Assembly (NCBI RefSeq): GCF_016793485.1
Contig: NZ_JAEULZ010000016.1
Location: forward strand, 1-64,000
Direction of reading: 5' to 3'
Length of the DNA stretch: 64,000 nt
DNA from: Mesorhizobium sp.
Lineage (GTDB): Bacteria > Pseudomonadota > Alphaproteobacteria > Rhizobiales > Rhizobiaceae
The notes under the pieces were generated by a model. The model saw only the letters and a program-made list of their open reading frames with translations. It was not told the DNA's origin and ran no database searches. Numbering within the stretch: the stretch's first letter is position 1; each line of letters starts with the position of its first letter. The position numbers and the translations under genes were made by a program. Of this stretch, positions 30,718-55,213 are shown piece after piece.

Positions 30718-30747
30718 TTGCAAATCCTGCACAATTGTGCGTATATT
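30718..30747 (+). promoter_or_regulatory. Candidate sigma-70 promoter of the Rieske oxygenase gene
   Basis: TTGCAA (30718-30723) and TATATT (30742-30747) are separated by 18 bp and lie 33 bases before the start codon. The -10 overlaps the first bases of the TTGAATGAATATTCAA operator, so a bound repressor would occlude the promoter. The assignment is by eye. Confidence 0.5.
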
Positions 30748-30761
30748 GAATGAATATTCAA
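30746..30761. promoter_or_regulatory. BetI-like operator copy 1, upstream of the Rieske oxygenase
   Basis: TTGAATGAATATTCAA, an inverted repeat of TTGAAT/ATTCAA around GAAT. It ends 18 bases before the start at 30780. It matches the copies at 34566-34581 and 51226-51241 (consensus TTGAATGNNYRTTCAA). The flank ACAAT that follows is also shared with copy 3 (ACAAA). The likely binding protein is the BetI-like regulator encoded at 52140. Confidence 0.7.
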
Positions 30762-30779
30762 CAATTTCAGAGCGGCTAG

Positions 30780-31979
30780 ATGAACCCACATATGCTCAAT
30801 GTGGCGGTTCCCAACGATTGGGATCGGCGAGGACTTCCCGGCTGGGCCTATCATAGCCCGGCGCTGCTGGAGCTCGAGAAGGAGTTCGTGTTCCGCAACC
30901 ACTGGCAGATCGCCGGACACGTTTCCGACGTGCCCAATCCGGGCGACTACCTGACCATGGACGTGGTGGGCGAGCGTGCGTTGATTGTGCGCGGCAAGGA
31001 CGGCGTCGTCCGTGGCTTCCACAACATCTGCCGGCATCGTGGTTCTCGCGTCGTTGCGGAGAACCAGGGCAACTGCAAGAACGCGCTTGTCTGCCCCTTC
31101 CATGGCTGGGTCTACAACCTTGACGGCACCTTGCGCGGGGCGGCGCGCCCGCGCACCTTCCCCGAACTCGACAAGGAAGAGTTCGGCCTGATGCAGCTCG
31201 ACCTAGAAATCTGGATGGGCTTCATCTTCATCCGCTTCCATCCCGGCCCGCAGCCGTCCGTCGCCGAGCTGATGAGCCCCGTCGAGTCCGAGATCGCTCA
31301 CTACGATGTCGCCAACATGCTGCCGTCCTGGGGCATCTGGACCCAGACTTCGCCGGTGAACTGGAAATCCGTCCGCGACGTGGACAACGAAGGCTACCAC
31401 GTGGCGATGGCGCATCCCGCGTTGCAGGACCTCTACGGCGCGACCTATTTCGACGAGCCGTTCGTCAACGGCGTGTCACGCTCCTTTGCGACCTACAACC
31501 CACACGCCGGCCGCCGCTGGAGCGTGCGCAACTATGTCAAGATCGGTCCGGAGCAGCAGCGGCTGCCGGAGCATCTGCGCAAGGCCTGGATTTACTATGG
31601 TATCTTTCCCAACAACGTCATCACGCTGACGCCGGAGACCGTGCAGTTCTATCAGGAGTTCCCGCTGTCGACCGGCGAGACGGTGCTTCGCGGCGCGATC
31701 TATCGCTATGCCGACGAAAGCCGTGAGCAGGCCGCCGCCCGTTACCTCGCTTATCGTATAGATCGCGATACGATGAACGAGGACGTCCAGCTTTCCGTCT
31801 GGTCGAACGAGTCCATGCTGTCACAATCCTTCAGCGGCTTTTACCTGTCCGACCTGGAGTATGGCGTGCGCACGCACCACGATCATCTGCGCGAGATGAT
31901 CCCGGTTCTCAACCTGGAATCCGCGCCGGACGAAAAGGACATGGCCAACCTGAACGCGGCGCTGCTTAGCCACTCGTAG
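30780..31979 (+). CDS. Rieske non-heme iron oxygenase, alpha subunit (quaternary-amine/ring-hydroxylating type)
   Basis: A 399-residue oxygenase subunit. The Rieske [2Fe-2S] ligands are Cys84 and His86 (CRHRG) and Cys105 and His108 (CPFHGW). The mononuclear iron ligands are His207 and His212 in NEGYHVAMAH, with Asp335 (NEDVQ) a plausible third. This layout is shared by aromatic ring dioxygenases and by N-demethylating or C-N-cleaving oxygenases acting on betaines and carnitine. The BetI-like operator and the amine-type neighbours favour the latter. No beta subunit or reductase gene is adjacent. The promoter carries operator copy 1. Confidence 0.88.
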   Translation: MNPHMLNVAVPNDWDRRGLPGWAYHSPALLELEKEFVFRNHWQIAGHVSDVPNPGDYLTMDVVGERALIVRGKDGVVRGFHNICRHRGSRVVAENQGNCKNALVCPFHGWVYNLDGTLRGAARPRTFPELDKEEFGLMQLDLEIWMGFIFIRFHPGPQPSVAELMSPVESEIAHYDVANMLPSWGIWTQTSPVNWKSVRDVDNEGYHVAMAHPALQDLYGATYFDEPFVNGVSRSFATYNPHAGRRWSVRNYVKIGPEQQRLPEHLRKAWIYYGIFPNNVITLTPETVQFYQEFPLSTGETVLRGAIYRYADESREQAAARYLAYRIDRDTMNEDVQLSVWSNESMLSQSFSGFYLSDLEYGVRTHHDHLREMIPVLNLESAPDEKDMANLNAALLSHS

Positions 31980-32009
31980 CAGCGCAGCCCCTTCACGTCC
32001 GCGAGCGAT

Positions 32010-32924
32010 CTACTTTTTCGCTACCTTCTTCTTGGCGACGTAGTTCTCGCGATCGTTGTAGGACACAGCGACCGCGTTGCCGGCCTTGTCGTTTATCCGC
32101 TTAAGATAATTGTCCATGTGGTGGTCGGCGAGGTCGGCGCGGCCGAGCGAACGCCCCAGCTCTCCCTCGGAGATGCGGTCGGCGTCGTGTGTGGGCAGGA
32201 ACACGTAGCGCGGTCCTTCCAGCAGGATGATCTCTGGCCCTATGTGCTCGTAGATGCCGTGCTCTCGGTTGACGATGCTCGTTGGCGGCAGCATCGGGAT
32301 AATGTCGTTCTCGTCGACGACGCGAGTCAGATTCAGGAAACCGAGCTTCTGAACCCCGGCCGTCGTGGTGAATTTCGGCTGTCCGAAAGTCACCACCTTC
32401 GACACATCATAATTGTCCTCGGTAAGGTAGATCGCAATCAACACGGCGATCGCTCCACCGAGGGAGTGTCCGGTGACATAGGTCTTGTAGCCCTGCTTCA
32501 GGTAGGGCTTCATGTCGGCATAGAGCAGCTTCGCGGTATCGTCGAAGCCCATGTGCACCGGAATGGCGATCGCAAGGTCGACGCGGATCCGCATCTCCGC
32601 GTCTTCAAGGAAATTTTTCCGGTTCGCCGTTCCGCGAATGGCGATGTACTGAACCTTCGCCTTGTCGTCGCGCTCGAGAAAATATTGCGCGTCGGTCTTG
32701 TCAGGAGAGCTGACCCGGATTGTCGCCGGATATTTGCTCCTGATCGCATCCTCGGTCGCATAGGCAGCCTTGGATCGTTCCGCATAGGCGGCGAGTTCGA
32801 CGAAATCGACCTTCTCGGTCGTGACCGAGGAGCCCAAGACCTCCAGTTCCTGCTTGGATACGGTCGTGCATGCCGTCAGCGCCAGCATCAAAACGGCAAT
32901 GGTCGCCGACAAACGAAACTTCAT
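32010..32924 (-). CDS. Lipoprotein of the lipase class 3 family
   Basis: A 304-residue exported protein. The signal ends with the lipobox LTAC, so Cys19 is the predicted lipidated residue. The alpha/beta-hydrolase nucleophile is Ser154 in TGHSLGGAIAVL, and the surrounding AIRGTANRKNFLEDAE oxyanion region fits lipase class 3 (fungal-type lipases). VTFGQPKFTT follows, and DENDIIPMLPP probably supplies the catalytic Asp. The last residues are lysine-rich. It converges with the Rieske gene. The substrate is not known and no chaperone or secretion gene is beside it. Confidence 0.85.
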   Translation of the reverse strand: MKFRLSATIAVLMLALTACTTVSKQELEVLGSSVTTEKVDFVELAAYAERSKAAYATEDAIRSKYPATIRVSSPDKTDAQYFLERDDKAKVQYIAIRGTANRKNFLEDAEMRIRVDLAIAIPVHMGFDDTAKLLYADMKPYLKQGYKTYVTGHSLGGAIAVLIAIYLTEDNYDVSKVVTFGQPKFTTTAGVQKLGFLNLTRVVDENDIIPMLPPTSIVNREHGIYEHIGPEIILLEGPRYVFLPTHDADRISEGELGRSLGRADLADHHMDNYLKRINDKAGNAVAVSYNDRENYVAKKKVAKK

Positions 32925-33088: not shown

Positions 33089-34504
33089 CTAGCCCCGCCA
33101 GACGCCCTCTTTCCTGAGATCGTCCATGGTACGCGAAATGCCCTCGCGCAGAATGGCGACGAGGTCGTCCACCTGTTCCTTGGTGATGACCAGCGGCGGG
33201 CTCATGACGCACATGTTGATAAGCGGACGCACCAGCAGTCCGAGTTCGTGGCAATGCTGGTCGATGCGCTTGCCGACGTCCTTGTCGAGTAGCAGCGGAT
33301 CGTTGCTCTCGCGGTCGGCGACACATTCGACGCAGCCCATCAGCCCCTCGCCGCGCACCTCGCCGACCAGCGGCAGCTCTTCTAGAGTCTTCAGACGCGC
33401 CTGGAAATAAGGGCCAACCTCGCGCGCGTGTTCCAGCAGCCCACCCTCCAGCAGCTCGAGGTTCGCCAGCGCCACCGCGCAGCCGATCGGATGGCTGGTG
33501 TAGGTCAGGCCGTGGCCGAACATCGCGTCTGGATGGTTCGAACGATTGAGATCCCGAAGCAGACGCTCCGAGATCATCACGCCGCCGAGCGGGAAGTAGC
33601 CGGAGGTGACGCCCTTCGCGAAGGTGATCATGTCCGGCTCGATTCCGAACAGTTCCTCGGATGCGAAGACGTGGCCGAGGCGGCCGAACGCCGTCACCAC
33701 CTCGTCCGACACGTAAAGGATCTCATATTCGCGGCAGAGCTCGCGGATACGCTTCAGATAGTTTTTCGGCGGCACGATCACGCCGCCCGATGCCTGGATC
33801 GGCTCGCCGACGAAGGCGCCAATCTTTTCCGCGCCAACGCGTTTCACCGTATCGCGGAACTCATCGACCAGGAAATCCTCGAAGGCCTGGAGCGTCATGC
33901 CCTTCGGCCGGCGGAACGGGTCGGGCGAGCACAGCTTGACCACTAGCGCATCGGCCGCATCCATCCAGTCGCGGTCGCGCGGCCGGCCGTTCAGCGAACC
34001 CGACAGATAGGTCGAGCCGTGATAGGCGCCACCACGCGACAGGATCAGCTTCTTTTCCGGCCGGCCGCGCACATTGTTATAAAACTGCATGAAGCGCAGC
34101 GCCGTCTCGACAGCCGATGAACCGCCGGTCGTGTAGAAAACATGATTGAGGTCGCCAGGCGCATAACCTGCGATACGGCGCGAGAGTTCGGCCGAAGGCG
34201 CATTCATCGTGTACCATGGCGTGTTGTAGGAGAGTTCCATCGCCTGGCTGTACATGACGCGCGCCAGTTCCTCGCGCCGATGGCCCGCGTTGATGCACCA
34301 CATTCCGGCCGGGCCGTCGATAAGACGATTCCCGTCGCCGTCGATCAGGTAGATGCCGTCTCCTGAGGTGACTAGTGTGCGCGCTTCCGCGCCCACATCC
34401 CCGGCATAAGGCCACGGCTGCACAAGATGGTTCTTCGCCGCCTCTATGGCCTCCGCAGCCGCATCCGATGCCCCGACCTCCCGGAAATCCCTGACAGCAG
34501 CCAT
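33089..34504 (-). CDS. Class III PLP-dependent aminotransferase (omega-amine type)
   Basis: A 471-residue fold-type I aminotransferase of the omega-amino acid/putrescine-pyruvate group. PLP residues are Asp267 in YVSDEVVTAFGRLG and the Schiff-base lysine Lys297 in FAKGVTSGYFPLGG; TTGGSSAVETALR binds the phosphate. It probably removes a terminal amino group from an amine or beta-amino acid, with pyruvate or oxaloacetate as acceptor; the exact substrate is not readable. It is divergent from a polyamine-type ABC transporter, and operator copy 2 lies 62 bases upstream of its start, linking uptake and deamination. Confidence 0.9.
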   Translation of the reverse strand: MAAVRDFREVGASDAAAEAIEAAKNHLVQPWPYAGDVGAEARTLVTSGDGIYLIDGDGNRLIDGPAGMWCINAGHRREELARVMYSQAMELSYNTPWYTMNAPSAELSRRIAGYAPGDLNHVFYTTGGSSAVETALRFMQFYNNVRGRPEKKLILSRGGAYHGSTYLSGSLNGRPRDRDWMDAADALVVKLCSPDPFRRPKGMTLQAFEDFLVDEFRDTVKRVGAEKIGAFVGEPIQASGGVIVPPKNYLKRIRELCREYEILYVSDEVVTAFGRLGHVFASEELFGIEPDMITFAKGVTSGYFPLGGVMISERLLRDLNRSNHPDAMFGHGLTYTSHPIGCAVALANLELLEGGLLEHAREVGPYFQARLKTLEELPLVGEVRGEGLMGCVECVADRESNDPLLLDKDVGKRIDQHCHELGLLVRPLINMCVMSPPLVITKEQVDDLVAILREGISRTMDDLRKEGVWRG

Positions 34505-34565: not shown

Positions 34566-34581
34566 TTGAATGTCCGTTCAA
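34566..34581. promoter_or_regulatory. BetI-like operator copy 2, between the aminotransferase and the ABC transporter
   Basis: TTGAATGTCCGTTCAA, with arms extended by one more base pair (ATTGAA at 34565, TTCAAT to 34582). It lies 62 bases before the minus-strand aminotransferase start and about 220 bases before the plus-strand permease start. No ORF or other clear signal was seen in the rest of this 297-bp spacer, apart from a GGAGAA ribosome-binding site for the permease. Confidence 0.7.
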
Positions 34582-34801
34582 TCAATATCGCAGAAATAGA
34601 GCTTGCTTTCAATCTCGCACTGCGCTCAAGATGAACAATACCGGCGAGCGAGACGGGAACCTCGGCTTCAGTCGGTCAATGGGAAGGCATGTCGGCGCTA
34701 GAGAACGCAGCAGAACCACCGGAAACGCTCTGTAGCAGGCGCGGGGAAGCACTTCTGTCCTCGCCCTGTAGCCGAGTCTCTCAATCCGGAGAACCGCGGT
34801 A

Positions 34802-35722
34802 ATGGCTGCGGTCGTGGAAGGGAGCAATTCGACACCAAGTGCACCCCGCGGCCGTGGCAGAGCCTTTCTCCAGTCGGAACAGGCCCAAGGTCTCGCGCTC
34901 ATAAGTCCGACGCTGCTCTATGCGCTGATCCTGCTTGTCGTTCCGGTCGGGGTCGTGATCGCCTACAGTTTCTGGACCCAGGACTATCTGTCGATCGATC
35001 GCACCTTCACGCTGGAGCAGTACAGCACAGCGCTCGGCGAACCGATCTACCGCGATCTTCTCCTACGCTCGCTCTGGGTGTCGCTGCTGGTCAGTATCTG
35101 CACCGTGGTGCTGGCTTACCCGATCGCCTACTACATTTCCTTCCACGGCGGTCGGCACAAGAGCCTATGGCTCTTCCTCATCACCATCCCGTTCTGGACG
35201 AGCTACCTCCTTCGCGTCATGTCGTGGAAAGTCATCCTCGGCTACAACGGCGTGCTCAATTCCGGCCTGATCGGACTTGGGATCATCGACGAACCTTCGA
35301 CCGCGCTGCTCTACAATACGTCGGCCGTCGTCATCACCCTCACCCACGCCTGGGCGGCTTTCGCCATCCTGCCGATCTTCGTGTCGCTGGAAAAGGTCGA
35401 CCGAACTTTGATCGAGGCAGCGCGAGACCTCGGCGACGGGCCGGTACGCTCGTTCCTGCGCGTGACGCTACCGCTGTCGCTTCCAGGTGTGATTTCGGCG
35501 CTGCTCATCGTCATGATCCCGACGGTCGGCGATTACGTCACGCCGAAACTCGTCGGCGGCAAGGACGGCGTCATGATCGCCTCGGCGATCGAGACGCAGT
35601 TCAAGCGTGGCGGGAACTGGCCTCTCGGCTCTGCGCTCTCCGTCGTCACGATGACGGTCGTCACGATGATGGCGCTGGCCGTGGTCTTCATCATCAGGCA
35701 GGCGGGGAGGCGTGTCCGATGA
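34802..35722 (+). CDS. Polyamine/opine-type ABC transporter permease (PotB-like)
   Basis: First permease of a spermidine/putrescine-type importer. It has 306 residues with six likely helices, beginning after a polar N-terminus of about 35 residues. The cytoplasmic coupling motif is EAARDLGDGPVRSFLRVTLPLSLPG, the EAA loop that docks to the ATPase. The start at 34802 is supported by GGAGAA eight bases upstream. The stop overlaps the next permease start by 4 bp. The operon has no binding-protein gene; the closest candidate lies at 52841 behind another copy of the same operator. Confidence 0.92.
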   Translation: MAAVVEGSNSTPSAPRGRGRAFLQSEQAQGLALISPTLLYALILLVVPVGVVIAYSFWTQDYLSIDRTFTLEQYSTALGEPIYRDLLLRSLWVSLLVSICTVVLAYPIAYYISFHGGRHKSLWLFLITIPFWTSYLLRVMSWKVILGYNGVLNSGLIGLGIIDEPSTALLYNTSAVVITLTHAWAAFAILPIFVSLEKVDRTLIEAARDLGDGPVRSFLRVTLPLSLPGVISALLIVMIPTVGDYVTPKLVGGKDGVMIASAIETQFKRGGNWPLGSALSVVTMTVVTMMALAVVFIIRQAGRRVR

Positions 35723-36528
35723 AGCGCCTGCTTTCCCACTGGCTGCCGGCCTATGCGTTCCTCTACATCGTCTTCCTCTATTTGCCGGTGATGTTCCTGC
35801 CGATCTTTTCGGTCAACGCCTCGCATGTACCGAAATTTCCGCTGACCGGCTTCACATGGAAATGGTACGAGGAATTGCCGCGTACGCCAGCTCTCCTCGA
35901 CGCCGCCTGGAACAGCCTTATGGTCGGCGTAACCGCAGCCATCCTCTCGACCATTCTCGGCATATGCGCGGCGCGCGCCATCACGCGCTACCGCTTTCGA
36001 GGCCGTACGGCTGCCTCCGGACTGATCATGGCGCCGCTGGTTCTGCCCGAGATCATCCTTGCCGTCTCGCTGTTGATCGTCATGCTGTCGCTTGGGCTGA
36101 AGCTGTCGCTTTTCACCGTCGTGCTCGGTCACGTCCTGATTTGTATCCCCTATTCGGTCACAGTGCTCAACGCGGGTTTCGAGGGTTTCGACCGCAGCCT
36201 CGAGGAGGCCTCGGCCGATCTCGGCGAAACGTCCTTCGGCACCTTCAGGCGGGTGACGCTGCCGATGGTCGCGCCGGCGATCATCTCGTCGCTTCTGGTG
36301 TCTTTCACCATTTCGCTCGACGAGTTCATCATGGCCTTCTTCCTTGCCGGCACGGACGCGACGCTGCCGGTCTACATCTGGGGCCAATTGCGCTTCGCCG
36401 CAAAGCTGCCGAGCGTGCTGGCGCTTGGCACGCTGCTGCTGGTGGGCTCCTTCATCCTTCTCACCATCGCCGAAATGTTGCGCCGCCGCGCCGAGCGCCG
36501 CGTCCATGGAGTGGCTACCCATGCCTGA
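35719..36528 (+). CDS. Polyamine/opine-type ABC transporter permease (PotC-like)
   Basis: Second permease, 269 residues with six helices. It starts at 35719, overlapping the previous stop by 4 bp (ATGA). The EAA loop is EASADLGETSFGTFRRVTLPM. SFTISLDEFIMAFFLAG is the PotC-type segment following it. The 3' end overlaps the ATPase gene by 8 bp, so the three genes form a tightly coupled operon. Confidence 0.93.
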   Translation: MKRLLSHWLPAYAFLYIVFLYLPVMFLPIFSVNASHVPKFPLTGFTWKWYEELPRTPALLDAAWNSLMVGVTAAILSTILGICAARAITRYRFRGRTAASGLIMAPLVLPEIILAVSLLIVMLSLGLKLSLFTVVLGHVLICIPYSVTVLNAGFEGFDRSLEEASADLGETSFGTFRRVTLPMVAPAIISSLLVSFTISLDEFIMAFFLAGTDATLPVYIWGQLRFAAKLPSVLALGTLLLVGSFILLTIAEMLRRRAERRVHGVATHA

Positions 36529-37639
36529 GTCAGCGTCCAGGCCCGAAGCAAAGCCCGAAGCCCGGCCGATGATCGAAATACGCAGCGTGACGCGCAGCTA
36601 CGGGCCGTTCAAGGCGCTCGATGACGCCAACCTGACCATTCGCGAAGGCGAATTCTTCTCGCTGCTGGGCCCGTCGGGCTGTGGCAAGACGACGCTGCTC
36701 AGGATGATCGCCGGCTTCGACAACCCGACCACGGGCTCGATCCACATCGATGGACAGGCAATGGACGGCATCCCGGCCAATCGTCGGCCGACCAATATGG
36801 TGTTCCAAAGCTATGCCATCTTTCCGCATCTCAATGTCGAGCAGAACGTCGCCTACGGGCTGAAGCGACAGAAACTCGGTGCTTCTGAAGAAAAACGCCT
36901 TGTCGAGGAAGCCCTTGGACAGGTCTCGCTATCCGGACTCGGCAAGCGGGGCGCGACGGAGCTTTCCGGCGGACAGCGCCAGCGCGTCGCACTTGCGCGC
37001 GCGCTCGTCATGCGGCCGAAGGTGCTGCTGCTCGATGAGCCGCTCTCCGCGCTGGACAAGAAGCTGCGCGAGCAGATGCAGGTCGAACTGCGCCGCCTGC
37101 AACAGGCGGTTGGCATTACCTTCATCCTCGTCACCCACGACCAATACGAAGCGCTGGCTCTTTCCGACCGCATTGCCGTCATGTTCGGCGGCAAGATCGC
37201 CCAGGTCTCCTCGCCAAAGGAAATCTACCAGCGGCCAGTAAACCGCCAGGTCGCGGATTTCGTCGGCGGCATGAATTTCATGAAGGGCGAGGTGGTCGAG
37301 GTCAACGGCTCCGCCATAACGCTCGACACGGCAGGCTTCGGCCGCGTGAGGACGGACAAGCCGGCCGGTTTCGCGGCGAACGGTCATGCCACACTCGGCA
37401 TCCGGCCGGAGCGGCTGCGTGTTCTTTGGGACGACGCCAAGGCCAGCCACGAGGTGGCGGGCAAGGTGGTCGAACGGCACTATTTTGGCGAGATCACGCA
37501 GCTCGTTGTTGAGGTGCCCGGTTTCGAGAAGCCGCTGTCGGTGACCGAGACCAACAATTTCGGCGCGGACGACCTCCCCGTCGGCGCGCAAATCCGCCTC
37601 GCCTACGATCCCGACGCGCTTGTGGCGATGGCAGACTGA
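36521..37639 (+). CDS. Polyamine/opine-type ABC transporter ATPase (PotA-like)
   Basis: A 372-residue ATPase. The start at 36521 overlaps the upstream gene by 8 bp; an internal ATG at 36569 (MIEIRSVTRSYG) is an alternative. Walker A GPSGCGKTT begins near residue 50, signature LSGGQRQR near 148, Walker B VLLLDEPLSALD follows. The C-terminal regulatory TOBE-type domain begins near residue 245 and includes TLGIRPERLRV. The family includes importers of spermidine, putrescine, opines, iron and 2-aminoethylphosphonate, so substrate identity depends on the missing binding protein. No terminator is obvious downstream. Confidence 0.93.
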   Translation: MPESASRPEAKPEARPMIEIRSVTRSYGPFKALDDANLTIREGEFFSLLGPSGCGKTTLLRMIAGFDNPTTGSIHIDGQAMDGIPANRRPTNMVFQSYAIFPHLNVEQNVAYGLKRQKLGASEEKRLVEEALGQVSLSGLGKRGATELSGGQRQRVALARALVMRPKVLLLDEPLSALDKKLREQMQVELRRLQQAVGITFILVTHDQYEALALSDRIAVMFGGKIAQVSSPKEIYQRPVNRQVADFVGGMNFMKGEVVEVNGSAITLDTAGFGRVRTDKPAGFAANGHATLGIRPERLRVLWDDAKASHEVAGKVVERHYFGEITQLVVEVPGFEKPLSVTETNNFGADDLPVGAQIRLAYDPDALVAMAD

Positions 37640-37801
37640 GTAGCCGGCTCGCAGCCGACTCGTCCCCGGTTGAGACAGAACCGTTAACGGCGAAGAAAAT
37701 ACCAACCCTGCAGAACGGCGTTGGCCTGTTGCTGTTAGTCGCTTGCGCAACCAGACCCACCACATGTTGTATGGAACAAACTGAGAAATCGGCCCGAACA
37801 G

Positions 37802-37823
37802 TGATTCGTCGCCGATTCGTTCC
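37802..37823 (+). repeat. 22-nt direct repeat, copy A
   Basis: Matches 38085-38106 at 21 of 22 positions (C/T difference at the 12th base). Each copy contains two GATTC sites 11 bp apart, about one helical turn. Both copies are followed by a TTAACGC motif (after 16 bases here). Confidence 0.8.
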
Positions 37824-42156: not shown

Positions 42157-42165
42157 GAGTCCGGC

Positions 42166-45805: not shown

Positions 45806-45807
45806 CT

Positions 45808-46697: not shown

Positions 46698-46699
46698 GA

Positions 46700-47941
46700 T
46701 CAGAAATCCGCCGGCGGATTGGCCATGCGCCGGGGCAGCTTGACGAAGGGGCGTTCCACGACTTTCGCGCGCTTCATCATCTTTTCGTACTTCAGCTCGC
46801 GCAGTGCATAGATTTCCACCCAGAGGTCGTCGTTCACCGTATCGCCATAGGGACGGGACAGGCTGGCAATCGCGATGTTCCGCTTAGCCAGTGGCGACCA
46901 GCCGGCGGCGCTGACCAGCCCGACTTCCTTCTTCTTGTTGTGATAGACGATCGCGTGTTCGGCGGGAATGTTACCCTCGATCTCCAAGCCAACGAGGATA
47001 TGGCCAAGCTTCCTGGTCTTGCGGGCTGCCTCGATGGCGCGGCTGCCGTTGAAATGGCCCTTCTTGAGATCGACCATGAAGCCGAGGCCGATCTCGTCGG
47101 GCATGCGGGCGCGGTTGGCGCGGAGCGCGTGTTCGGCTGTCGTGAAATCGGCATTGGCGACTATAAGGCCGGCCTCAAGTCGCGCGCGGTTGAGCGCCGT
47201 ATAGCCGATGGCGCGGATGCCGCGCATCTGCCCGGCCTCCATCAGTCGGTCCCAAAGGCTGAGCGCAAGGTTCGCCGGAACGAAAAGCTCATAGCCGAGG
47301 TCGCCGGTAAAACCGGTACGGGAGATCGTGACGGTGCCGCCCTGATGGTCGAAGCCGGCCAGATCGAAGATCTTCAGATGCTCCACACCTTCAAAGCCCG
47401 CGTCGCGCAGAACCGCGAATGAAGTCGGCCCCTGCAGCGCCAGCCCGGCAATCTCCTCGGTCTCTTCGACGACGGAGACATCGTAGCCAATCGCGGAATC
47501 GAGCAACCACGGCAGATGCCGCTCCTGGCAGCACAGGCGGAAGGCATCGTCGGTCAGCCTGAAGAGCGTGCCGTCGTCGAGTACATGGCCCTCGTCGTCG
47601 CACCATGCCGTATAGTGGACGCGGCCGGGTCGCAGCTTTGAGACGTCCCGCAGCGTGACTCGGTTGAGGAACGCCTCGGCATCCGACCCCTGGATCAGGT
47701 ATTTCACCATCGGCGAAATGTCGAAGAGCGCGGCCTGGCTGCGGATCGCGAAATACTCCAGTTCCTCGTCCCACAGCGAGGCCGGTGCACGATAGCCGGC
47801 CCAGGAATACCAGTCGTTCTGCTTCATCAGCGCGTCGATGCGCGGCTGGAACGGGGTGTCCAGACGCAGCGTGCGGAAGTGACCGCGCGCAGCGATGCGT
47901 CCGGCATAGGGTGAACTCGTCTTCTTTGCCGTCTTCGTCAT
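46700..47941 (-). CDS. GcvT-like aminomethyltransferase family protein
   Basis: A 413-residue protein of the glycine-cleavage T/YgfZ superfamily, whose members move one-carbon groups from N- or S-methyl compounds to tetrahydrofolate. Visible features are VHYTAWCDDEGHVLDD and LALQGPTSFAVL in the first domain, SRTGFTGDLGYELFV (the conserved folate-pocket segment), and NRARLEAGLIVANADF, a variant of the GcvT RxExG region. Glycine cleavage P and H genes are absent, so glycine cleavage itself is unlikely. Demethylation of a substrate is a better fit with the neighbours. Its start overlaps the preceding flavoprotein gene by 4 bp. Confidence 0.85.
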   Translation of the reverse strand: MTKTAKKTSSPYAGRIAARGHFRTLRLDTPFQPRIDALMKQNDWYSWAGYRAPASLWDEELEYFAIRSQAALFDISPMVKYLIQGSDAEAFLNRVTLRDVSKLRPGRVHYTAWCDDEGHVLDDGTLFRLTDDAFRLCCQERHLPWLLDSAIGYDVSVVEETEEIAGLALQGPTSFAVLRDAGFEGVEHLKIFDLAGFDHQGGTVTISRTGFTGDLGYELFVPANLALSLWDRLMEAGQMRGIRAIGYTALNRARLEAGLIVANADFTTAEHALRANRARMPDEIGLGFMVDLKKGHFNGSRAIEAARKTRKLGHILVGLEIEGNIPAEHAIVYHNKKKEVGLVSAAGWSPLAKRNIAIASLSRPYGDTVNDDLWVEIYALRELKYEKMMKRAKVVERPFVKLPRRMANPPADF

Positions 47942-49554
47942 GACTGGCGCTCCATGGCGATGATGCGCCGCGCTGCATTCAGCCCGGGCGCTCCGGACAC
48001 GCCGCCACCCGGATGCGAGCCCGCGCCGCAGAGGTAGAGCCCATCGATCGGCGTGGAATAACCCTCGGCGCCGAAGGCCGGACGCGACATGAGCATCTGA
48101 TCAGCCTGCAACTCGCCGTGGTGCCAGTGGCCGCCCGGCATGCGGTAGCGGGCTTCGATGTCCGCAGGCGTCAGCAGTTCGGCGTGACGGACCGTCTTGC
48201 CGATGCCCGGCGAATGCTTTTCCAGCGCGCCCATGATCGCCTTGAGAAACTTTGGCTTTCCGCTCTCCCAACCTTCGCGCAGCCGATACGGCGCATACTG
48301 CACGACAGCCGAGAGGACACAGGCGCCGTCCGGCGCGAGCGAGGGATCGGCAAGGCTAGGAAGCGTGATCTCGAGGACGGGTTCGGCAGAGAACTCGCCA
48401 TATTTGGAGGGATTGAAGGCTCGCTCCACATGATCCGTCGAGGGCGCTATGACCAGCCTTCCCTTGAGACCAACGGCATCAACGCCCGCGAATTCGGGCA
48501 GGCGGTCAAGCGCCAGATGCAGCTTGGCCGCATCGCCGTGGTTGCGGATATTGCTGATCTTGCGCACGAACCCCGTGTCGAGTTCGCGCGGCCCGACTAG
48601 GTCGAGGAAGGTCGTGGACGGATCGGCTGCGGAGACCACAGTGGTTGCCGCAATCTCCTCCCCGTTTTCCAGAACGACACCAGTCGCACGTCCATTCTCG
48701 ACGAGAATCTTTATGATCGGCGCATCTGTTCGCAGGACCACTCCCGCCTTTGATGCCGCATCCGCAATCGCGGCGACGACACTGCCCATGCCGCCCTTGG
48801 GCACGAGTTGGGAGCCCGGCGCGCCGCCGATCTCGCCGGCAAAGCGATAATAGAGGCCGAGCAGGGAAGTCGGCGACCGCGGGCCGAGATGGCTGCCGAG
48901 CACCGCGTCGAAGGCGAGCAGCCCCTTCAACCTGTTGTCCGTCAGTTGTTCGTCGAGCAGGTCGGCGACATTCATCAGGATGACACGCAGGAAATCGCGC
49001 ATGTCTTCCTTGCCGAGCTTCTTCAGCGCCAGCACCGTTTGGCCCAGCGCCAAAGTCTCGGTAATCGACATCTTTCCGCGCAGGTCAGGCGGCCGACGCG
49101 AAAGGAAGGGCTTCAGGATTCCAGCGTAGCGAAACAGCTGTGCGCGAAGGTCCTTCCAGGCCGCTGCTTCGGCGGACGACGCGCCGACGAGCCCTTCGCC
49201 ATAAGCGCCGGTCAAAGTCAGCGGGCCGTCTTTAGCCGACAAAGAGACCGACGGAACTGCGTCTGCAGGTGCGAATTTCAGACCGTGCTTTTCGAGGTCC
49301 AGTTCCTTGACGACATCCGGGTGAAGCCGGTTGAGCAGATGCGCCACCGAGGACACGCGGAAGCCCGGCGCAAGCTCCTCGGTCCGGGCGCCGCCACCGA
49401 ACTCGGAAGCAGCTTCGAGAACCAGGACCTTGCGGCCCGACTTGGCAAGAAGCGCTGCACAGACGAGCCCGTTGTGCCCGCCGCCGATGACGATGACGTC
49501 ATGCCTGGCGGTCCAGCGCGAAGCCACCTGCTGTTGAGCATCAGATGACGTCAT
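47938..49554 (-). CDS. PYROXD2/phytoene-dehydrogenase-like FAD oxidoreductase (second copy)
   Basis: A 538-residue flavoprotein. The FAD loop VIGGGHNGLVCAALLAKSG lies near residues 21-40, followed by VLVLEAASEFGGGARTEE. The C-terminal FAD-binding end is LYLCGAGSHPGGGVSGAPG. It belongs to the group of amine/carotenoid-type dehydrogenases that includes human PYROXD2; substrates are mostly unknown. It is a paralogue of the gene upstream, whose stop it overlaps by 14 bp, and it overlaps the GcvT-like gene downstream by 4 bp. Carotenoid genes are absent, so carotenoid desaturation is unlikely. Confidence 0.88.
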   Translation of the reverse strand: MTSSDAQQQVASRWTARHDVIVIGGGHNGLVCAALLAKSGRKVLVLEAASEFGGGARTEELAPGFRVSSVAHLLNRLHPDVVKELDLEKHGLKFAPADAVPSVSLSAKDGPLTLTGAYGEGLVGASSAEAAAWKDLRAQLFRYAGILKPFLSRRPPDLRGKMSITETLALGQTVLALKKLGKEDMRDFLRVILMNVADLLDEQLTDNRLKGLLAFDAVLGSHLGPRSPTSLLGLYYRFAGEIGGAPGSQLVPKGGMGSVVAAIADAASKAGVVLRTDAPIIKILVENGRATGVVLENGEEIAATTVVSAADPSTTFLDLVGPRELDTGFVRKISNIRNHGDAAKLHLALDRLPEFAGVDAVGLKGRLVIAPSTDHVERAFNPSKYGEFSAEPVLEITLPSLADPSLAPDGACVLSAVVQYAPYRLREGWESGKPKFLKAIMGALEKHSPGIGKTVRHAELLTPADIEARYRMPGGHWHHGELQADQMLMSRPAFGAEGYSTPIDGLYLCGAGSHPGGGVSGAPGLNAARRIIAMERQS

Positions 49555-51160
49555 GGGCAGGGCTCATATGTCTGGTGGGCTTGGAAAGATCGCGCAGGAT
49601 TTCGGCTGCGGCGTTGCGGCCGGGAGCGCCCATGACGCCTCCGCCGGGATGGGTCGACGAACCGCAGATGTAGAGACCGCCGATCGGTGAACGGTATTGC
49701 GCATAGCCGGGTACGGGGCGGTTGAACAGCAACTGGTCGAAGGTCAGCTCGCCCTGGAAGATGTTGCCTTCGGTGAGACCGACCTCCGCCTCCAGTTCGC
49801 GTGGGGTGCGCACCTCCATGTGGATGATCCGGTCGCGGAAGCCCGGCGAATAGTCCGCGATCTGCGAGATCACCGTTTCGGCGAAGGCGTCGCGGTCGGC
49901 GTCCGTCCAGTCGCGCCCCTCGACCTTGGGCGGGCAGTACTGCACGAAGCAGGACATGAAGTGCTTGCCCGGCGGCGTCATGGTGGGATCGAGCGTGGTC
50001 GGGATCATCATGTCGAGGAACGGATCGGCCGACCAGCGCCCGGCCTTCCAGTCGTCGTAGGCACGTTCCATGCGCTCGACGGAGTCGGTGAAATGCAGGT
50101 CGCCGCGGATCGACGGCGCGTCCTTCGGCAGCGCGGGGAATTCCGGCAGCGAATCCAGCGCGATGTTCACCTTGCCGGACGAGCCCCTGATCTTGAAGTT
50201 CTTCACACGGCGCAGGAAGACGTCGGGCAGTTCCTTTTCCTCGACCAGTTTGAGGAAGGTGCGCTTCACGTCGGCATTGGAGATCACCAGCTTGCCACGG
50301 ATTTCCTCGCCGTTCGCAAGCACGATGCCTGTCGTCCGGCCATCCTTGACCAGAACCTTGTCCACTTCGGCACCGATGCGGATGGTGCCGCCGGAGGCCT
50401 GGAAGCTTTCCGAAAGCGCCTTGGTGATCGCGCCCATGCCGCCGCGCGCATAGCCCCACGCGCCGACCGAGCCATCAACCTCGCCCATATAGTGGTGGAG
50501 CAGCACGTAGGCCGTGCCGGGAGACATCGGACCCAGCGCGGTGCCGATGATCCCCGAGATCGAAAAATTCGCCTTGATGACGTCGGTCTCGAAATATTCG
50601 TCGAGGAATTCGGAGATCGACATGGTCCAGAAGCGGAGCGTCTCGGCCATCTGGCTTGGCCCGAGGTCGTGGAATTTCTTCGCGAGATACATGAGTTCGC
50701 CAACGTCGCGCGGCTTCAGGCTGGTCGGGTCGGGCGCGGTTCGCATCAGCAGCGGCTGGATGAAGCGGCACTGCCGCGTCACGTCGCGTGCGTAGCGATC
50801 GTAGGCCTCGGCGTCGCGCTTCGAGAAGCGGGCGAACTCCCGGCGATGCGCGTCGTGGTCGCGGTAGTTGGCCAGATAGTCGCCGTCGCGAGTGAAGACC
50901 GCGCCACCCTCGTAGGCGATGACTTGCAGGCCGAAGCGCGGCAGCTCCAGATCGCGCATGATCTCGGGGCGGAACAGCGAACAGACATAGGAACAGTTCG
51001 AGTAGAGAAAGCCCGGCGTCAGCGACCGGCTGACGGCCGCGCCGCCCACCCAGTCGTTCTTCTCGACCACCAGCACGTCCAGACCCGCCCGCTGCAGGTA
51101 GCAGGCGTTGACAAGTCCGTTATGGCCGCCGCCGATGACGATAGCGTCCCAAGTCTTCAT
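49541..51160 (-). CDS. PYROXD2/phytoene-dehydrogenase-like FAD oxidoreductase (first copy)
   Basis: First gene of the minus-strand operon, 539 residues. The FAD loop is IVIGGGHNGLVNACYLQRAG at residues 7-26, followed by VLVVEKNDWVGGAA. The C-terminal FAD end is LYICGSSTHPGGGVMGAPG. It is clearly related to the downstream flavoprotein and almost the same size, so the two may form a heteromeric enzyme or act on successive intermediates. The promoter region to its right holds operator copy 3, shared with the divergent methyltransferase gene. Confidence 0.88.
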   Translation of the reverse strand: MKTWDAIVIGGGHNGLVNACYLQRAGLDVLVVEKNDWVGGAAVSRSLTPGFLYSNCSYVCSLFRPEIMRDLELPRFGLQVIAYEGGAVFTRDGDYLANYRDHDAHRREFARFSKRDAEAYDRYARDVTRQCRFIQPLLMRTAPDPTSLKPRDVGELMYLAKKFHDLGPSQMAETLRFWTMSISEFLDEYFETDVIKANFSISGIIGTALGPMSPGTAYVLLHHYMGEVDGSVGAWGYARGGMGAITKALSESFQASGGTIRIGAEVDKVLVKDGRTTGIVLANGEEIRGKLVISNADVKRTFLKLVEEKELPDVFLRRVKNFKIRGSSGKVNIALDSLPEFPALPKDAPSIRGDLHFTDSVERMERAYDDWKAGRWSADPFLDMMIPTTLDPTMTPPGKHFMSCFVQYCPPKVEGRDWTDADRDAFAETVISQIADYSPGFRDRIIHMEVRTPRELEAEVGLTEGNIFQGELTFDQLLFNRPVPGYAQYRSPIGGLYICGSSTHPGGGVMGAPGRNAAAEILRDLSKPTRHMSPAHDVI

Positions 51161-51225: not shown

Positions 51226-51241
51226 TTGAATGAATGTTCAA
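51226..51241. promoter_or_regulatory. BetI-like operator copy 3, between the flavoprotein and methyltransferase operons
   Basis: TTGAATGAATGTTCAA, 65 bases before the minus-strand flavoprotein start and 87 bases before the methyltransferase start. It differs from copy 1 by a single base in 16 and shares the ACAA flank. The BetI-like gene itself lies in the plus-strand operon, so autoregulation is expected. Confidence 0.7.
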
Positions 51242-51328
51242 CAAATGAGGTTGCATTTTCCTGCGGCGGGGATAGGCTTGCGCCATGATCGCAAGTCCGA
51301 TCCGGGCTTGCCGCTTGGGAAGCGATCG

Positions 51329-52123
51329 ATGATCGACACGGCGGACGCCGCGCCGGAATATGACGACGAGGCCATTCGCTTCCTGGAGGCGCTGTGGGGT
51401 GATGGCTATCTGTCGCCGGGCGGCCCCGATGAGGTGGACCGCGTGGTCGAGGGCCTCGATCTCCGGGGCAAGACCATCCTCGACATCGGCTGCGGCTCCG
51501 GCGGAATAACCCTGCATCTTGTCGAGAAGCACAACGCGGCGCATGCAACGGGCTTCGACGTCGAACTGCCGGTCATCGAGGCTGCGCGACTGCGCGCGCG
51601 GAAACGCAGCCTGTCGGATCGCGCCATCTTCGTCCATGCCGCACCAGGGCCTCTTCCCTTCGCCGACGGCACGTTCGACATGGTGTTCTCCAAGGACGCG
51701 CTGCTGCACGTGCCAGACAAGGATGCGCTATTTGCAGAAATCTTTCGGGTCCTGAAGCCGGGCGGCGTGTTCGCGGCCTCGAACTGGATGATCGGTCACG
51801 ACAATGAGCCGTCACCCGACATGAAAGCCTATGTCGCCGCGGAAGGGCTGTCGTTCGCCATGGCGTCGCCAGTTCGCTACGCCGCGGCAATGAAGAGAGC
51901 AGGTTTCGAGGACGTCGAGACGCGCGACCGAAACCCCTGGTATCGCGACGTGGCGCGCAGGGAATTGGAGCAGTTGAAGGGGCCACTCTACGACAAGGTG
52001 GCGGCTGCGGTTGGCGCGCCCTATGTGGACAAGAATATCAAGACCTGGGAGGCCATGCAGAAGGTGCTTGACTCGGGCGAACATCGCCCCACCCATCTGC
52101 GCGGCTGGAAGCCCCTAAAGTAG
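51329..52123 (+). CDS. Class I SAM-dependent methyltransferase
   Basis: A 264-residue methyltransferase. The start at 51329 ([18 protein letters not shown]) is preferred over an upstream frame that would run into the operator. SAM-binding motif I is [10 protein letters not shown] near residue 50, the acidic motif follows in ATGFDVEL, and the post-motif [20 protein letters not shown] is typical of ubiquinone/sarcosine-type small-molecule N-methyltransferases. The C-terminal half includes a region like phosphoethanolamine or glycine N-methyltransferases, but the substrate is not determined. It is the first gene of an operon with the BetI-like regulator, which begins 16 bp after its stop. Confidence 0.88.
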
Positions 52124-52139: not shown

Positions 52140-52817
52140 ATGACCGTCGAAACCCTGAAGCCGCCGACAGTCGAGACGGAGAAGCGCGGGCGGAAGGCCT
52201 CGAAGGAAACGCGACGCCATCAGTTGATCGAGGCGACGATCGATTCGCTCGCCAAACGCGGGTTCGCCGAGACGACCATGGCCGATGTCGCCGACGGCGC
52301 CGGCCTTTCCCGGGGCATCGTGAACTTTCATTTCGAGAGCAAGGAAAAGCTGCTCGTCGCCACGCTTCAGTACATGGCCGACGAATATGCCGCGCATTGG
52401 CGTTCAGCCCTTATGAAGGCAGGTGAAGATCCAGCGCGACAGCTTGCGGTGCTGGTGGCGGCGGACTTCGACCGCGCCATCTGCAACAAGCGAAAGCTCG
52501 CTGCCTGGTGCGCCTTCTGGGGCGAGGCGAAGTCGCGGCCGACCTACCAGGCGCTTTGCGGCGCCCGCGACCAAGCCTACCAGGATGTTTTCGTCGATAT
52601 CTGCAGCAGACTGCAGGCGGACGGCAATTACGACCTCGATCCGCAGAGCACGGCCCTTGGCCTTTCGGCAATGCTGGAAGGCCTTTGGCTGCGCCTGATG
52701 ATGGGCACCGAGGACCTGACCCGGGAAAGCGCGCATCGCGCTGCCGAGGACTTTCTGGCGTCCGTCTTTCCGAAGCATTTTTTGCGCAACGGCCGGCGCT
52801 CATCGACGGCGGCATAA
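52140..52817 (+). CDS. BetI-like TetR-family transcriptional repressor
   Basis: A 225-residue TetR-family protein. The DNA-binding domain spans about residues 24-75: RRHQLIEATIDSLAKRGFAE, then TTMADVADGAGLSRGIVNFH, whose recognition helix and NFHF motif match BetI, the choline-responsive repressor. The C-terminal ligand domain also resembles BetI (LAAWCAFWGEAKSRPTYQAL). No choline or betaine aldehyde dehydrogenase gene is in the window, so the effector may differ. I infer that it binds the three TTGAATGNNYRTTCAA boxes, one of which sits in its own operon promoter. Confidence 0.88.
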   Translation: MTVETLKPPTVETEKRGRKASKETRRHQLIEATIDSLAKRGFAETTMADVADGAGLSRGIVNFHFESKEKLLVATLQYMADEYAAHWRSALMKAGEDPARQLAVLVAADFDRAICNKRKLAAWCAFWGEAKSRPTYQALCGARDQAYQDVFVDICSRLQADGNYDLDPQSTALGLSAMLEGLWLRLMMGTEDLTRESAHRAAEDFLASVFPKHFLRNGRRSSTAA

Positions 52818-52840
52818 CAACAACGACACAAGGGGAAAAG

Positions 52841-53926
52841 ATGATGAAAGCTAGGAAGAGCAGAATCGCAATCACGCTTGCCGTGGCAACCGCGCTGCTG
52901 GGTTCGGTGGCGGGCGTTGTGACGGCGCAAGACAACGAACTGGTGATCTTCGACTGGTCCGGTTACGAGGCGCCGGAATTCCATCCCGGCTACGTCGCCA
53001 AATACGGACAGTCGCCAACCTTCACCTTCTTCGGCGACGAGGACGAGGCGTTCGAAAAGATGCGGGCGGGCTTCAAGACCGATCTCGCCCACCCTTGTTC
53101 GCAAAGCGTGGTGAAGTGGCGCGAGGCCGGCCTGCTGCAGCCGCTCGACACGTCGAAGATCACCGGCTGGAACGATCTCAACCCCGGCATCATGGCGATG
53201 AAGAACCTCGCCACCGACGCGAGCGGCGTCGCCTGGTTCATGCCCTGGGACTGGGGCAACACGCTCCTGACCTACAACAGCGAGAAGGTGCCGGCCGAAG
53301 ACATCAAGTCGCTCAAGATCCTGGCCGACCCGAAGTACAAGGATCGCATTTCCCTCCCCGACAATGTCGACGATGCCTATGCGCTCGGATCACTGGCCAT
53401 CGGCTTGAAGGACTGGACGGCGATGACCGACGAGCAGTTCAAGCAGGCTTCGGATTTCCTGCGTGAGGTTCACAAGAACGTACGGCTCTATTGGACTGAC
53501 AATACCGACATCGTCCAGGCGCTGAGCGGCGGTGAGATCGACCTGGCATGGGCCTGGAACGACGCCGCGGTGCAGTCGGCGCTGGCTGGCGCGCCTATCA
53601 AGAATACGCGCGACACCGAGGAGGGTCAGTCCACCTGGGTCTGCGGCTACGTTCTGTTGAAGGACGCGCCTGGCAGCACCGAGAAGGCCTATGACTTCCT
53701 GAACTCGATCAACACGCCGGAAGTGGCTAGCTTCCTGCTGTCGGATTGGGGTTACGGCCACGCGGACTCCAAGTCCATGGCGACGATCGACCCCGCGGTG
53801 GTCAAGGCGCAGGGATATGGCGACGTCGAGAAATTCGTCGACAAGACGTTGTTCCAGTCGCCTGTTCCGGCAGAACTGAAGCAGAAGATGATCGAGGAAT
53901 TCGAGAAGATCAAAGCCGGCTACTGA
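52841..53926 (+). CDS. Polyamine-type ABC transporter periplasmic binding protein (PotD-like)
   Basis: A 361-residue precursor with a Sec signal peptide (basic start, hydrophobic core ending VVTAQ, mature chain from about DNELVIFDWSGYE). AGGGGAAAAG precedes the start. The mature protein resembles spermidine/putrescine binding proteins, with ligand-site stretches such as WFMPWDWGNTLLTYN and RLYWTDNTDIVQALSGGEI. No permease gene is adjacent, whereas the permease-ATPase operon at 34802-37639 has no binding protein. Both are downstream of matching operators, so they probably form one importer. Confidence 0.9.
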   Translation: MMKARKSRIAITLAVATALLGSVAGVVTAQDNELVIFDWSGYEAPEFHPGYVAKYGQSPTFTFFGDEDEAFEKMRAGFKTDLAHPCSQSVVKWREAGLLQPLDTSKITGWNDLNPGIMAMKNLATDASGVAWFMPWDWGNTLLTYNSEKVPAEDIKSLKILADPKYKDRISLPDNVDDAYALGSLAIGLKDWTAMTDEQFKQASDFLREVHKNVRLYWTDNTDIVQALSGGEIDLAWAWNDAAVQSALAGAPIKNTRDTEEGQSTWVCGYVLLKDAPGSTEKAYDFLNSINTPEVASFLLSDWGYGHADSKSMATIDPAVVKAQGYGDVEKFVDKTLFQSPVPAELKQKMIEEFEKIKAGY

Positions 53927-53950
53927 CCGGATTGATAAGGAGCCGGCCGC

Positions 53951-55213
53951 ATGGCGAAAATCGTCGTGATCGGGGCCGGCTTCTGTGGCCTGAGCGCCGC
54001 GCTGGCGCTCAGGCAGGCAGGGGTTGATGTCACCGTCCTGGAGGCACGCGGTCGTGTCGGCGGCCGCGTAGAGGCTCAGCCGAACGGGCTGGGTGAAATC
54101 GTCGACACCGGCGGCCAGTTCATCTGCGACGACATGCCGGAGGTGATGAAGCTGGCGCGCCGCAATGGTGCTACGCTCGTCGAGTCCGACTTTACCGGCA
54201 ATTACGTCACGCAACCACAGACGTCGCTCGAACAGGCGGAGCGCGCCCGCTCGGGATCGACGGCGTTGCGCGAGCGCATGAGCGCTCTACCGCCGGACGA
54301 CCCATCGCTGTCCGGACTGACTGTCGCAGGCTGGCTGGCCCGTCAGGACGAATCGGAGGACGTGAAGGCGGCCTTCAGGACAATGATCGAAGGCCTGTGG
54401 TGCGTCAGCCTCGAGATCATGCCGGCCTGGTATCTCATTGACAACGACAGACGCATCACGAACGAGGTCGGCGAATTGCAATATTCGCTCGCTGGCACGA
54501 TGCAGGCTTTGGCCGACCAGTTGGCAGAAGAACTGGGCGCAAGCATTCGGCTGTCGGAACCTGCAATTAGAATCGAACATGGCTCGAGCGGCGTTCGCGT
54601 GCTGACCGACAAAGCCGCCTACGAAGCCGATGCAGCGCTGGTCGCTGTGCCTCCGATGACGGCGCGACGGATCGACTATGAGCCGGCCCTGTCTCTGCGA
54701 TTGAGCAAGGCTCTTGGCGCATGGCAAAGCGGCGCGGTCATCAAGGTGCTGGCACGCTACGCAAAACCGTTCTGGCGCGAGAAGGGCGTGAGCGGCATGG
54801 TGATGTGGCGGGAGCCTTCGGGGCTGTTCGCCTTCGATTCCAGCCGTGACATCAACCACCCGCAGCTTACCTTTTTCGTCGGCGGCCCTCTTGCCACGGA
54901 ATGGACCCGGTATGGCGAGCAGGCGATCCGTGACGCAGCCAAGGCAAAGCTTGTCACCGCGCTCGGGCCCGAGGCCGCCGATCCGCTCGACATGACAGTC
55001 CGCGACTGGACCGGCGATCGCTGGAGCGGCGGTGCCTATAGCGACGTGATCGTGGACATGGCGGCCCGGGACGCCGAAAGCGTCATCCGGACGGGGGCAC
55101 CGCCGCTTTTCTTCGCTTCGTCGGAATTGTCGCCGTCCTTTCCCGGCTACGTCGAGGGGGCGATCGTTTCGGGACGGCAGGTGGCGGCCAGGATCGTATC
55201 CGCCCTCGGCTAA
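53951..55213 (+). CDS. Flavin-containing amine oxidase family protein
   Basis: A 420-residue FAD amine oxidase. The dinucleotide loop is IVVIGAGFCGLSAALALRQAG, read from residue 4, followed by VTVLEARGRVGGRVE, the characteristic second FAD segment. The C-terminal FAD part is FFASSELSPSFPGYVEGAI. It probably oxidises a primary, secondary or tertiary amine to imine with H2O2 or another acceptor. It starts 24 bp after the binding-protein gene and closes the operator-linked operon. There is no signal peptide, so it is cytoplasmic. Confidence 0.88.
   Translation: MAKIVVIGAGFCGLSAALALRQAGVDVTVLEARGRVGGRVEAQPNGLGEIVDTGGQFICDDMPEVMKLARRNGATLVESDFTGNYVTQPQTSLEQAERARSGSTALRERMSALPPDDPSLSGLTVAGWLARQDESEDVKAAFRTMIEGLWCVSLEIMPAWYLIDNDRRITNEVGELQYSLAGTMQALADQLAEELGASIRLSEPAIRIEHGSSGVRVLTDKAAYEADAALVAVPPMTARRIDYEPALSLRLSKALGAWQSGAVIKVLARYAKPFWREKGVSGMVMWREPSGLFAFDSSRDINHPQLTFFVGGPLATEWTRYGEQAIRDAAKAKLVTALGPEAADPLDMTVRDWTGDRWSGGAYSDVIVDMAARDAESVIRTGAPPLFFASSELSPSFPGYVEGAIVSGRQVAARIVSALG

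Follow-up and report, generated by a model that had tools for sequence, protein, structure and literature searches.

The closest described counterparts of the genes considered here come from four kinds of systems: the BetI-betIBA/betT choline regulon of Escherichia coli; the group V Rieske oxygenases GbcA, CntA and Stc2, which demethylate glycine betaine, carnitine and stachydrine; the polyamine importers PotABCD and PotFGHI; and trimethylamine N-oxide (TMAO) demethylase and dimethylglycine dehydrogenase/oxidase, in which a non-GcvT demethylase domain is fused to a GcvT-type folate domain. Elements resembling each of these occur in a stretch of 64,000 nucleotides from Mesorhizobium sp. (assembly GCF_016793485.1, contig NZ_JAEULZ010000016.1, positions 1 to 64,000), referred to below as the window. 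Here, genes associated with three copies of a 16-bp palindrome probably make up one catabolic cluster of Alphaproteobacteria, locally split, that is controlled by a BetI-type TetR repressor encoded from position 52140 (the 52140 TetR) and serves the breakdown of an N-methylated or quaternary amine.

The resemblance to each of these systems is partial. As in the choline regulon, a BetI-type TetR protein with a TetR_C_6 domain is accompanied by a palindromic operator in a divergent promoter, but the recognition helix differs, the protein scores below the choline-BetI cut-off, the cluster is without betA and betB, and three operators serve one catabolic gene set, whereas a BetI protein encoded on contig C34 of the same genome has another box. 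The Rieske protein belongs to the same broad group as GbcA, CntA and Stc2, shares the bridging Glu and is likewise associated with one-carbon removal, but it reaches only 135 bits against the GbcA cut-off of 670 (NF058607), with a best stretch confined to residues 18-217, is without the Cys-X-X-Cys pair, and has as partners two flavoproteins (FAD1 and FAD2), a GcvT-like protein and an aminotransferase. The folate domain of that GcvT-like protein best matches TMAO demethylase and retains its Asp, but it is free-standing beside two flavoproteins of the CrtO/CrtI type. Finally, the importer has the permease, ATPase and binding-protein architecture of the Pot systems, and an aromatic box is common to both, but the cluster proteins fall below the curated cut-offs and the positions of two PotD carboxylates are replaced.

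Operator boxes and cluster layout

The first-pass annotation of this DNA had placed three copies of a palindrome at 30746, 34566 and 51226, the first at a Rieske gene, the second between a class-III aminotransferase and a Pot-type ATP-binding cassette (ABC) transporter, and the third between flavoprotein and GcvT-like genes on one side and genes for a methyltransferase and a BetI-like TetR on the other. The boxes, their sequences, the single-base difference between copies 1 and 3, and the genes beside them were all recovered (Table 1), with gene identities assigned from Pfam and NCBIfam profiles and from sequence matches to the PDB. When up to two mismatches are allowed, the window yields six strand-hits for the box, a number reached by none of 100 shuffles (shuffle mean 0.71). 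In the whole genome (5,213,963 bases in 52 contigs) the box TTGAATGNNNNTTCAA occurs without mismatch at the three box positions only, compared with 0.31 exact sites expected from a first-order model trained on the composition of the window, so that the expectation that the motif would be absent from unrelated promoters holds for the exact box in this genome. One mismatch admits five further places: L004 and L005 fall within a confident reading frame, L006 lies in a frame that looks weakly coding, and L007 and L008 are near gene starts. The position of boxes 1 and 2 at or just past a -10-like element would suit repression; in the interval between the methyltransferase-TetR operon and fad1, where box 3 lies, no sigma-70-like site was found. 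Box 3 contains the first in-frame ATG of the methyltransferase reading frame (51230), so the true start is probably downstream and automatic annotation may begin this gene too early.

Conservation of the boxes was examined in several sets of genomes. The strict pattern TTGAATGNNNRTTCAA, run over 61 relative genomes with the reversed pattern as control, gives 46 strand-hits against 5 for the control and is found in 20 of the 61. A relaxed form, [CT]TGAA[TC][GA]NN[CT][AG]TTCA[AG], was counted within 400 bp upstream of genes in 80 named loci, which were kept at 88-95% identity to fad1 from 564 confirmed candidates of any identity in a contig scan with the fad1 alignment and which come mainly from Mesorhizobium, with Phyllobacterium, Pseudaminobacter and Mycoplana in addition. 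It precedes fad1 in all 80 and, where upstream DNA is covered, the aminotransferase gene in 71 of 71 and the Rieske gene in 3 of 5. Fifteen stretches from nine relatives of the same family carry it before fad1 (9/9), the aminotransferase gene (7/7) and the Rieske gene (9/9), as do four plasmid records from Shinella, Rhizobium and Ensifer (4/4 before each of the three). Within the 2.09 Mb of these loci there are 196 relaxed boxes, 191 of them assigned to fad1, the aminotransferase gene or the Rieske gene and the remaining five lying before potB or Rieske genes at locus edges, with no strays. Among the 61 relatives, a fad1 ortholog (at least 75% identity) occurs in 13 and the strict box in 20, with both in 11 (Fisher p 2e-5); as the strict boxes of G005 and G045 lie elsewhere, nine of the 13 fad1-bearing relatives have the strict box in the cluster itself, and the cluster of G005 carries the relaxed form.

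Short AT-rich palindromes are common, and three such sites could in principle arise by chance at unrelated promoters. This explanation is practically out of the question: the exact box is unique to the three promoters genome-wide with 0.31 expected, and the counts for the reversed control together with the retention of boxes at each target, without strays, refute it at the sequence level. The proposal that the three promoters form a real regulon, with boxes kept at orthologous genes in relatives, is thus upheld by the exclusive placement of the exact box and by its conservation.

Another question is how the genes under these boxes are arranged. When window proteins were mapped on 20 stretches from relatives, the box was seen in other genera upstream of the Rieske gene, of aminotransferase/potB and of fad1/TetR, and the genes there are contiguous over about 19 kb in G034, about 16 kb in G033 and about 12 kb in G006 (which is without the methyltransferase and amine oxidase), as well as over the part read of G014; the aminotransferase and potABC genes of G018 were not found within the 35 kb read. 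In Shinella and Rhizobium SL42 the annotated clusters occupy about 13 kb each, giving an extent of about 12-19 kb in other genera. In the genus of the window, other genes intervene between the halves in G001 and G003, the halves of G002 lie on two contigs, and in the window the cluster genes cover 25 kb with one unrelated block of 9 kb between the halves. The description of the regulon as dispersed therefore does not hold, nor does the suggestion that gene-neighbourhood methods alone would miss the link, since the genes form a single cluster in other genera and such methods would find the set.

Gene content is similarly consistent. Within the 80 named loci, fad2 and gcvT accompany fad1 in 80, followed by the TetR (79, at an ortholog threshold of at least 60% identity; the eightieth locus, L095, ends at a contig edge), potD (78), potA (75), methyltransferase (74), potB (73), aminotransferase (71), amine oxidase (71) and Rieske (17) genes. 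The amine oxidase is accessory: it has orthologs in 71 of the 80 loci, but none was detected in the four plasmid-record clusters. In larger samples, fad1 orthologs were recovered from 10 of 385 members of the class at E 1e-200; at E 1e-160 the figures are 17 of 297 for the order and 11 of 398 for the phylum, every genome in the last count belonging to the Alphaproteobacteria. In several distant versions of the cluster a glutamate-1-semialdehyde-aminomutase-like protein replaces the aminotransferase, and genes for an acyl-CoA ligase, an acyl-CoA dehydrogenase, a BKACE protein or an aldehyde dehydrogenase lie nearby; other versions have a second Rieske protein, a cupin of the dimethylsulfoniopropionate (DMSP) lyase family and an amidohydrolase. 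Neighbours of the quaternary-amine type are also found in distant versions.

The probable regulator of the boxes

The presence of a BetI-type TetR gene inside the regulon, as first proposed, is borne out by profile matches: the 52140 TetR reaches 48.8 bits for TetR_N (gathering threshold 24) and 71.4 for the BetI-type C-terminal domain TetR_C_6 (PF13977; threshold 27). It scores 123 bits with the choline-BetI model TIGR03384, for which the cut-off is 201.3, and 122.2 with the looser PRK00767/NF001978 model, for which it is 118. Neither betA nor betB is among the cluster genes identified in the window or named in the annotated clusters of relatives. The recognition segment LSRGIVNFHFESK is identical in eight of nine aligned TetRs from clusters with relaxed boxes (the window, L048, L046, L044, L050, L138, L139 and L144); the ninth, from G040 (L145), has MSSGIVNFHFESK, and the corresponding helix segment in E. 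coli BetI is VSTGIISHYFRDK. With this shared helix, the 52140 TetR is the likely regulator of the boxes.

The name "BetI box", given to the palindrome in the first-pass annotation, stands in part. In E. coli, the region between betI and betT includes TTGATTGGACGTTCAA, which differs from the consensus at one position, but the 52140 TetR lies below the choline-BetI cut-off and the BetI on contig C34 has a different palindrome, ATTGACCGGTCAAT, directly upstream. The same observations bear on whether a different BetI-family protein binds the boxes, either one of the choline-type pair of this genome or a BetI-like TetR encoded about 20 kb past the 52140 gene on the same contig, so that the cluster would belong to the choline/betaine response. 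Besides the near-match to the E. coli operator, this alternative can draw on two other proteins of the genome above the curated BetI cut-off, on a weaker one at C46:72757, and on relatives in which the box adjoins other BetI-like TetR genes. It is nevertheless quite unlikely: beyond the distinct site of the C34 BetI, the strict box occurs in neither of the 3.6-kb loci around the two choline-type BetI genes, whereas a TetR of the 52140 family stands beside the cluster in all but one of the 80 named loci, with the recognition helix unchanged in eight of the nine aligned box-bearing clusters.

In a distant cluster, that of G076, the DNA separating the TetR and aminotransferase genes includes a 24-bp perfect palindrome, CATTGATTGAACGTTCAATCAATG. 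On the contig of the window itself (C46:64000-80000, L161), at 8683-11810 of that segment and about 9-12 kb past the window end, lies a BetI-like TetR with 88.8 bits to TIGR03384 (cut-off 201.3), near a gene for an MttB-family trimethylamine methyltransferase-like protein (283 bits to TIGR02369, cut-off 525); this may possibly be a further quaternary-amine locus.

Candidate chemistry and substrate

In the Rieske protein, C84, H86, C105, H108, E204, H207, H212 and D335 are invariant in eight of eight aligned sequences, with catalytic roles assigned by position, and the group V signature of Cys/His pairs, catalytic His/Asp and bridging Glu is present. The Glu is retained at the position of CntA E205, a residue taken from an excerpt of the PubMed Central (PMC) article PMC10952381. 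According to the same excerpt, some group V Rieske oxygenases have a Cys-X-X-Cys motif beside the mononuclear iron (PMC10952381); in the alignment of the window protein NEGYHV replaces ECxHC, and the second Rieske of Fuscovulum has ECLHC.

The GcvT-like protein has the GcvT/aminomethyltransferase fold (PF01571, 193.6 bits against a gathering threshold of 25.6; PF08669, 33.4 against 25.9) and falls short of the TMAO demethylase model NF053776, with 238.1 bits over profile positions 386-726 of 763 only and a cut-off of 1100. Its D122, invariant in 11 of 11 aligned sequences, aligns with D96 of 1woo, which we take to be the catalytic folate-site Asp. The two flavoproteins score below both the CrtO cut-off of 1000 (FAD1 307.1, FAD2 226.7 bits) and the crtI_fam cut-off of 238.1 (132.8 and 123.4 bits). 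In fold matching, FAD1 is of the carotenoid-desaturase type, with carotenoid desaturases at the top and amine and nicotine oxidases, renalases and protoporphyrinogen oxidases lower, which does not discriminate C-C from C-N oxidation. A role in carotenoid metabolism, which the CrtO-like matches might suggest, is not supported: despite the fold of FAD1, the scores are far under the cut-off and the partners do not fit.

For the importer, the Pot equivalog models give 370.3 of 482 bits for PotA, 202.8 of 348 for PotB and 84 of 582 for PotD. The binding protein keeps the aromatic box and has Gly and Cys at the two carboxylate positions, the roles of all these residues being presumed from PotD. The aminotransferase belongs to the PRK07036 family (NF005447), to which no substrate is assigned. 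A PotABCD-like importer could act with the aminotransferase, a class-III enzyme akin to polyamine aminotransferases, and with the amine oxidase, akin to putrescine oxidase, to degrade an ordinary, non-methylated polyamine such as spermidine or homospermidine, with the Rieske and GcvT-like proteins in other roles. This alternative is rather improbable, as a GcvT-like protein accompanies fad1-fad2 in every named locus, the plasmid-record clusters lack a detected amine oxidase ortholog, the presumed carboxylates of PotD are replaced, and the Pot models score under their curated cut-offs.

Under the reading preferred here, that of a cluster for a methylated or quaternary amine, the 52140 TetR would in the absence of ligand bind the 16-bp palindromes, the positions of which are observed, and block transcription; the palindromes lie over or just 3' of the -10-like element at the promoters of the Rieske and aminotransferase genes and, in the third case, between the operon of the regulator itself and fad1. 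A cationic amine imported by the Pot-type system, or an intermediate derived from it, could then bind the TetR and release it from the DNA. The Rieske oxygenase would oxidise an N-methyl group or an adjacent carbon. Additional N-methyl groups would be stripped by FAD1 and FAD2 acting with the GcvT-like protein, tetrahydrofolate taking up the one-carbon unit, and nitrogen removal would fall to the aminotransferase and the amine oxidase, as the families and fixed association of these proteins suggest. The demethylation chemistry is proposed from the families of the proteins and from the constant company of fad2 and gcvT with fad1, and homology points to a probable substrate that is N-methylated or quaternary, be it a diamine, a polyamine or an amino acid. 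A set for import, oxidation, deamination and demethylation, as originally proposed, thus remains plausible from the product families, and the accompanying statement that no known pathway is complete also holds; no characterised pathway fits. Pathways for choline, carnitine, glycine betaine or stachydrine are rejected because the regulator and the Rieske protein fall below curated cut-offs.

Several observations weigh against this reading or limit its reach. The substrate class derives from homology only, no gene for a Rieske reductase was recognised among the identified cluster genes, and an N-methyltransferase-like protein sits oddly within a demethylation operon. The Rieske ortholog is found in only 17 of the 80 named loci within the stretches covered, in part because many loci end near the aminotransferase gene, and its box is missing in L065 and L098. 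As most named loci are from Mesorhizobium and three genomes occur in two sets, the counts are not independent events. Beyond these sets, 12 more clusters have the relaxed box at cluster promoters in four cases (L206, L207, L215 and L216, the last from the family of the window) and not in eight, one of which, L205, stops at the fad1 start; nor was this form of the box found in two Rhodobacterales clusters (L136, L137). Conversely, nine of the 61 relatives have the strict box without a fad1 ortholog, and the same type of box lies directly 5' of different BetI-like TetR genes, with the helix AGVSxGLAHHYF, in G022 (L150), G028 (L054) and a second place in G005 (L025). The motif alone consequently does not name its regulator: the box type appears to belong to a group of BetI-like TetRs, with the exact box of this genome at the cluster only, and its occurrence before other TetR genes suggests a wider family of BetI-like operators.

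It is conceivable, as a tentative proposal, that FAD1, FAD2 and the GcvT-like protein constitute a new folate-linked oxidative N-demethylase, in which two flavoproteins of the carotenoid-desaturase type replace the demethylase domain of dimethylglycine dehydrogenase or TMAO demethylase, and that the BetI-type regulon around them is a widespread alphaproteobacterial pathway for a methylated natural amine so far not recognised as a bacterial nutrient. In searches of open-licence PMC papers, no description of the cluster, its pathway or its substrate was found among the matches listed, and when homarine and trimethyllysine were considered as substrates, the first ten papers listed for each contained no such gene cluster. 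About a dozen conserved genes otherwise annotated as generic oxidoreductases and transporters are in this way tied into one regulon with a regulator, an operator and testable chemistry. Mesorhizobium and its relatives frequently carry the cluster, and the identity of the inducer would reveal a nitrogen and one-carbon source of soil and root-nodule bacteria.

Features and neighbouring genes of the window

Coordinates of the boxes, promoters and genes are collected in Table 1. The gene list of the first-pass annotation omits the PotD-like binding protein and extends to the end of the amine oxidase.

Table 1. Operator boxes, promoter-like elements and cluster genes of the window, with the block between the two halves.
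Feature	Position	Strand	Remarks
Sigma-70-like Rieske promoter	30718..30747	+	TTGCAA-18-TATATT; consensus match only
Operator box 1	30746..30761		TTGAATGAATATTCAA; overlaps -10-like TATATT (30742-30747); 18 bp 5' of Rieske ATG
Rieske non-heme iron oxygenase alpha subunit	30780..31979	+	Distant GbcA/CntA relative without Cys-X-X-Cys pair
Class-III aminotransferase	33089..34504	-	NCBIfam PRK07036 family (NF005447), 709.7 bits against cut-off 618
Operator box 2	34566..34581		TTGAATGTCCGTTCAA; immediately 3' of -10-like GATATT (ends 34584) of aminotransferase promoter
Sigma-70-like aminotransferase promoter	34584..34612	-	TTGAAA-17-GATATT; consensus match only
PotB-like ABC permease	34802..35722	+	Profile match and orthologs
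PotC-like ABC permease	35722..36528	+	92-95% identity to orthologs in genus
PotA-like ABC ATPase	36560..37639	+	Start codon inferred
Block between halves	37640-46699		Includes Suv3-like helicase, CarD protein, ABC transporter (fused membrane and ATPase domains), DUF1349 protein
GcvT-like aminomethyltransferase	46700..47941	-	Nearest to TMAO demethylase folate domain; folate-site Asp conserved
FAD2, CrtO/CrtI-type flavoprotein	47938..49554	-	Profile match
FAD1, CrtO/CrtI-type flavoprotein	49541..51160	-	Best conserved cluster member
Operator box 3	51226..51241		TTGAATGAATGTTCAA; separates fad1 from methyltransferase/TetR operon
S-adenosylmethionine-dependent methyltransferase	51230..52123	+	Closest solved relatives phosphoethanolamine N-methyltransferases; true start probably 3' of box
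BetI-type TetR regulator (TetR_C_6), presumed repressor	52140..52817	+	Profile match
PotD/PotF-like periplasmic binding protein	52838..53926	+	Open reading frame opens upstream at 52508
Flavin amine oxidase, monoamine oxidase/putrescine oxidase type	53951..55213	+	Profile and PDB match

Other genes recur next to the cluster in the genus. An aldehyde dehydrogenase and a LysR gene (window 28052-30584) adjoin the Rieske gene and are also beside it in G002 and G003, the box lying on the Rieske side. Between the Rieske and aminotransferase genes is a class-3 lipase gene (window 32010-32924), which is kept in G001, G002 and G003. In window 55290-57803, a sugar transporter of the major facilitator superfamily lies 3' of the amine oxidase, in the same order in those three genomes, and is followed in the window and in G001 by a 6-phosphogluconate-dehydrogenase-like gene, named from sequence alone.

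Farther afield, a distant version of the cluster has a gene for an MttB-family protein (L177:2673-4181; 189 bits to TIGR02369) about 4 kb away, and an M19 membrane dipeptidase, identified beyond gcvT at L085:14850-15920, belongs to an open-reading-frame cluster present in 59 of 106 clustered loci.

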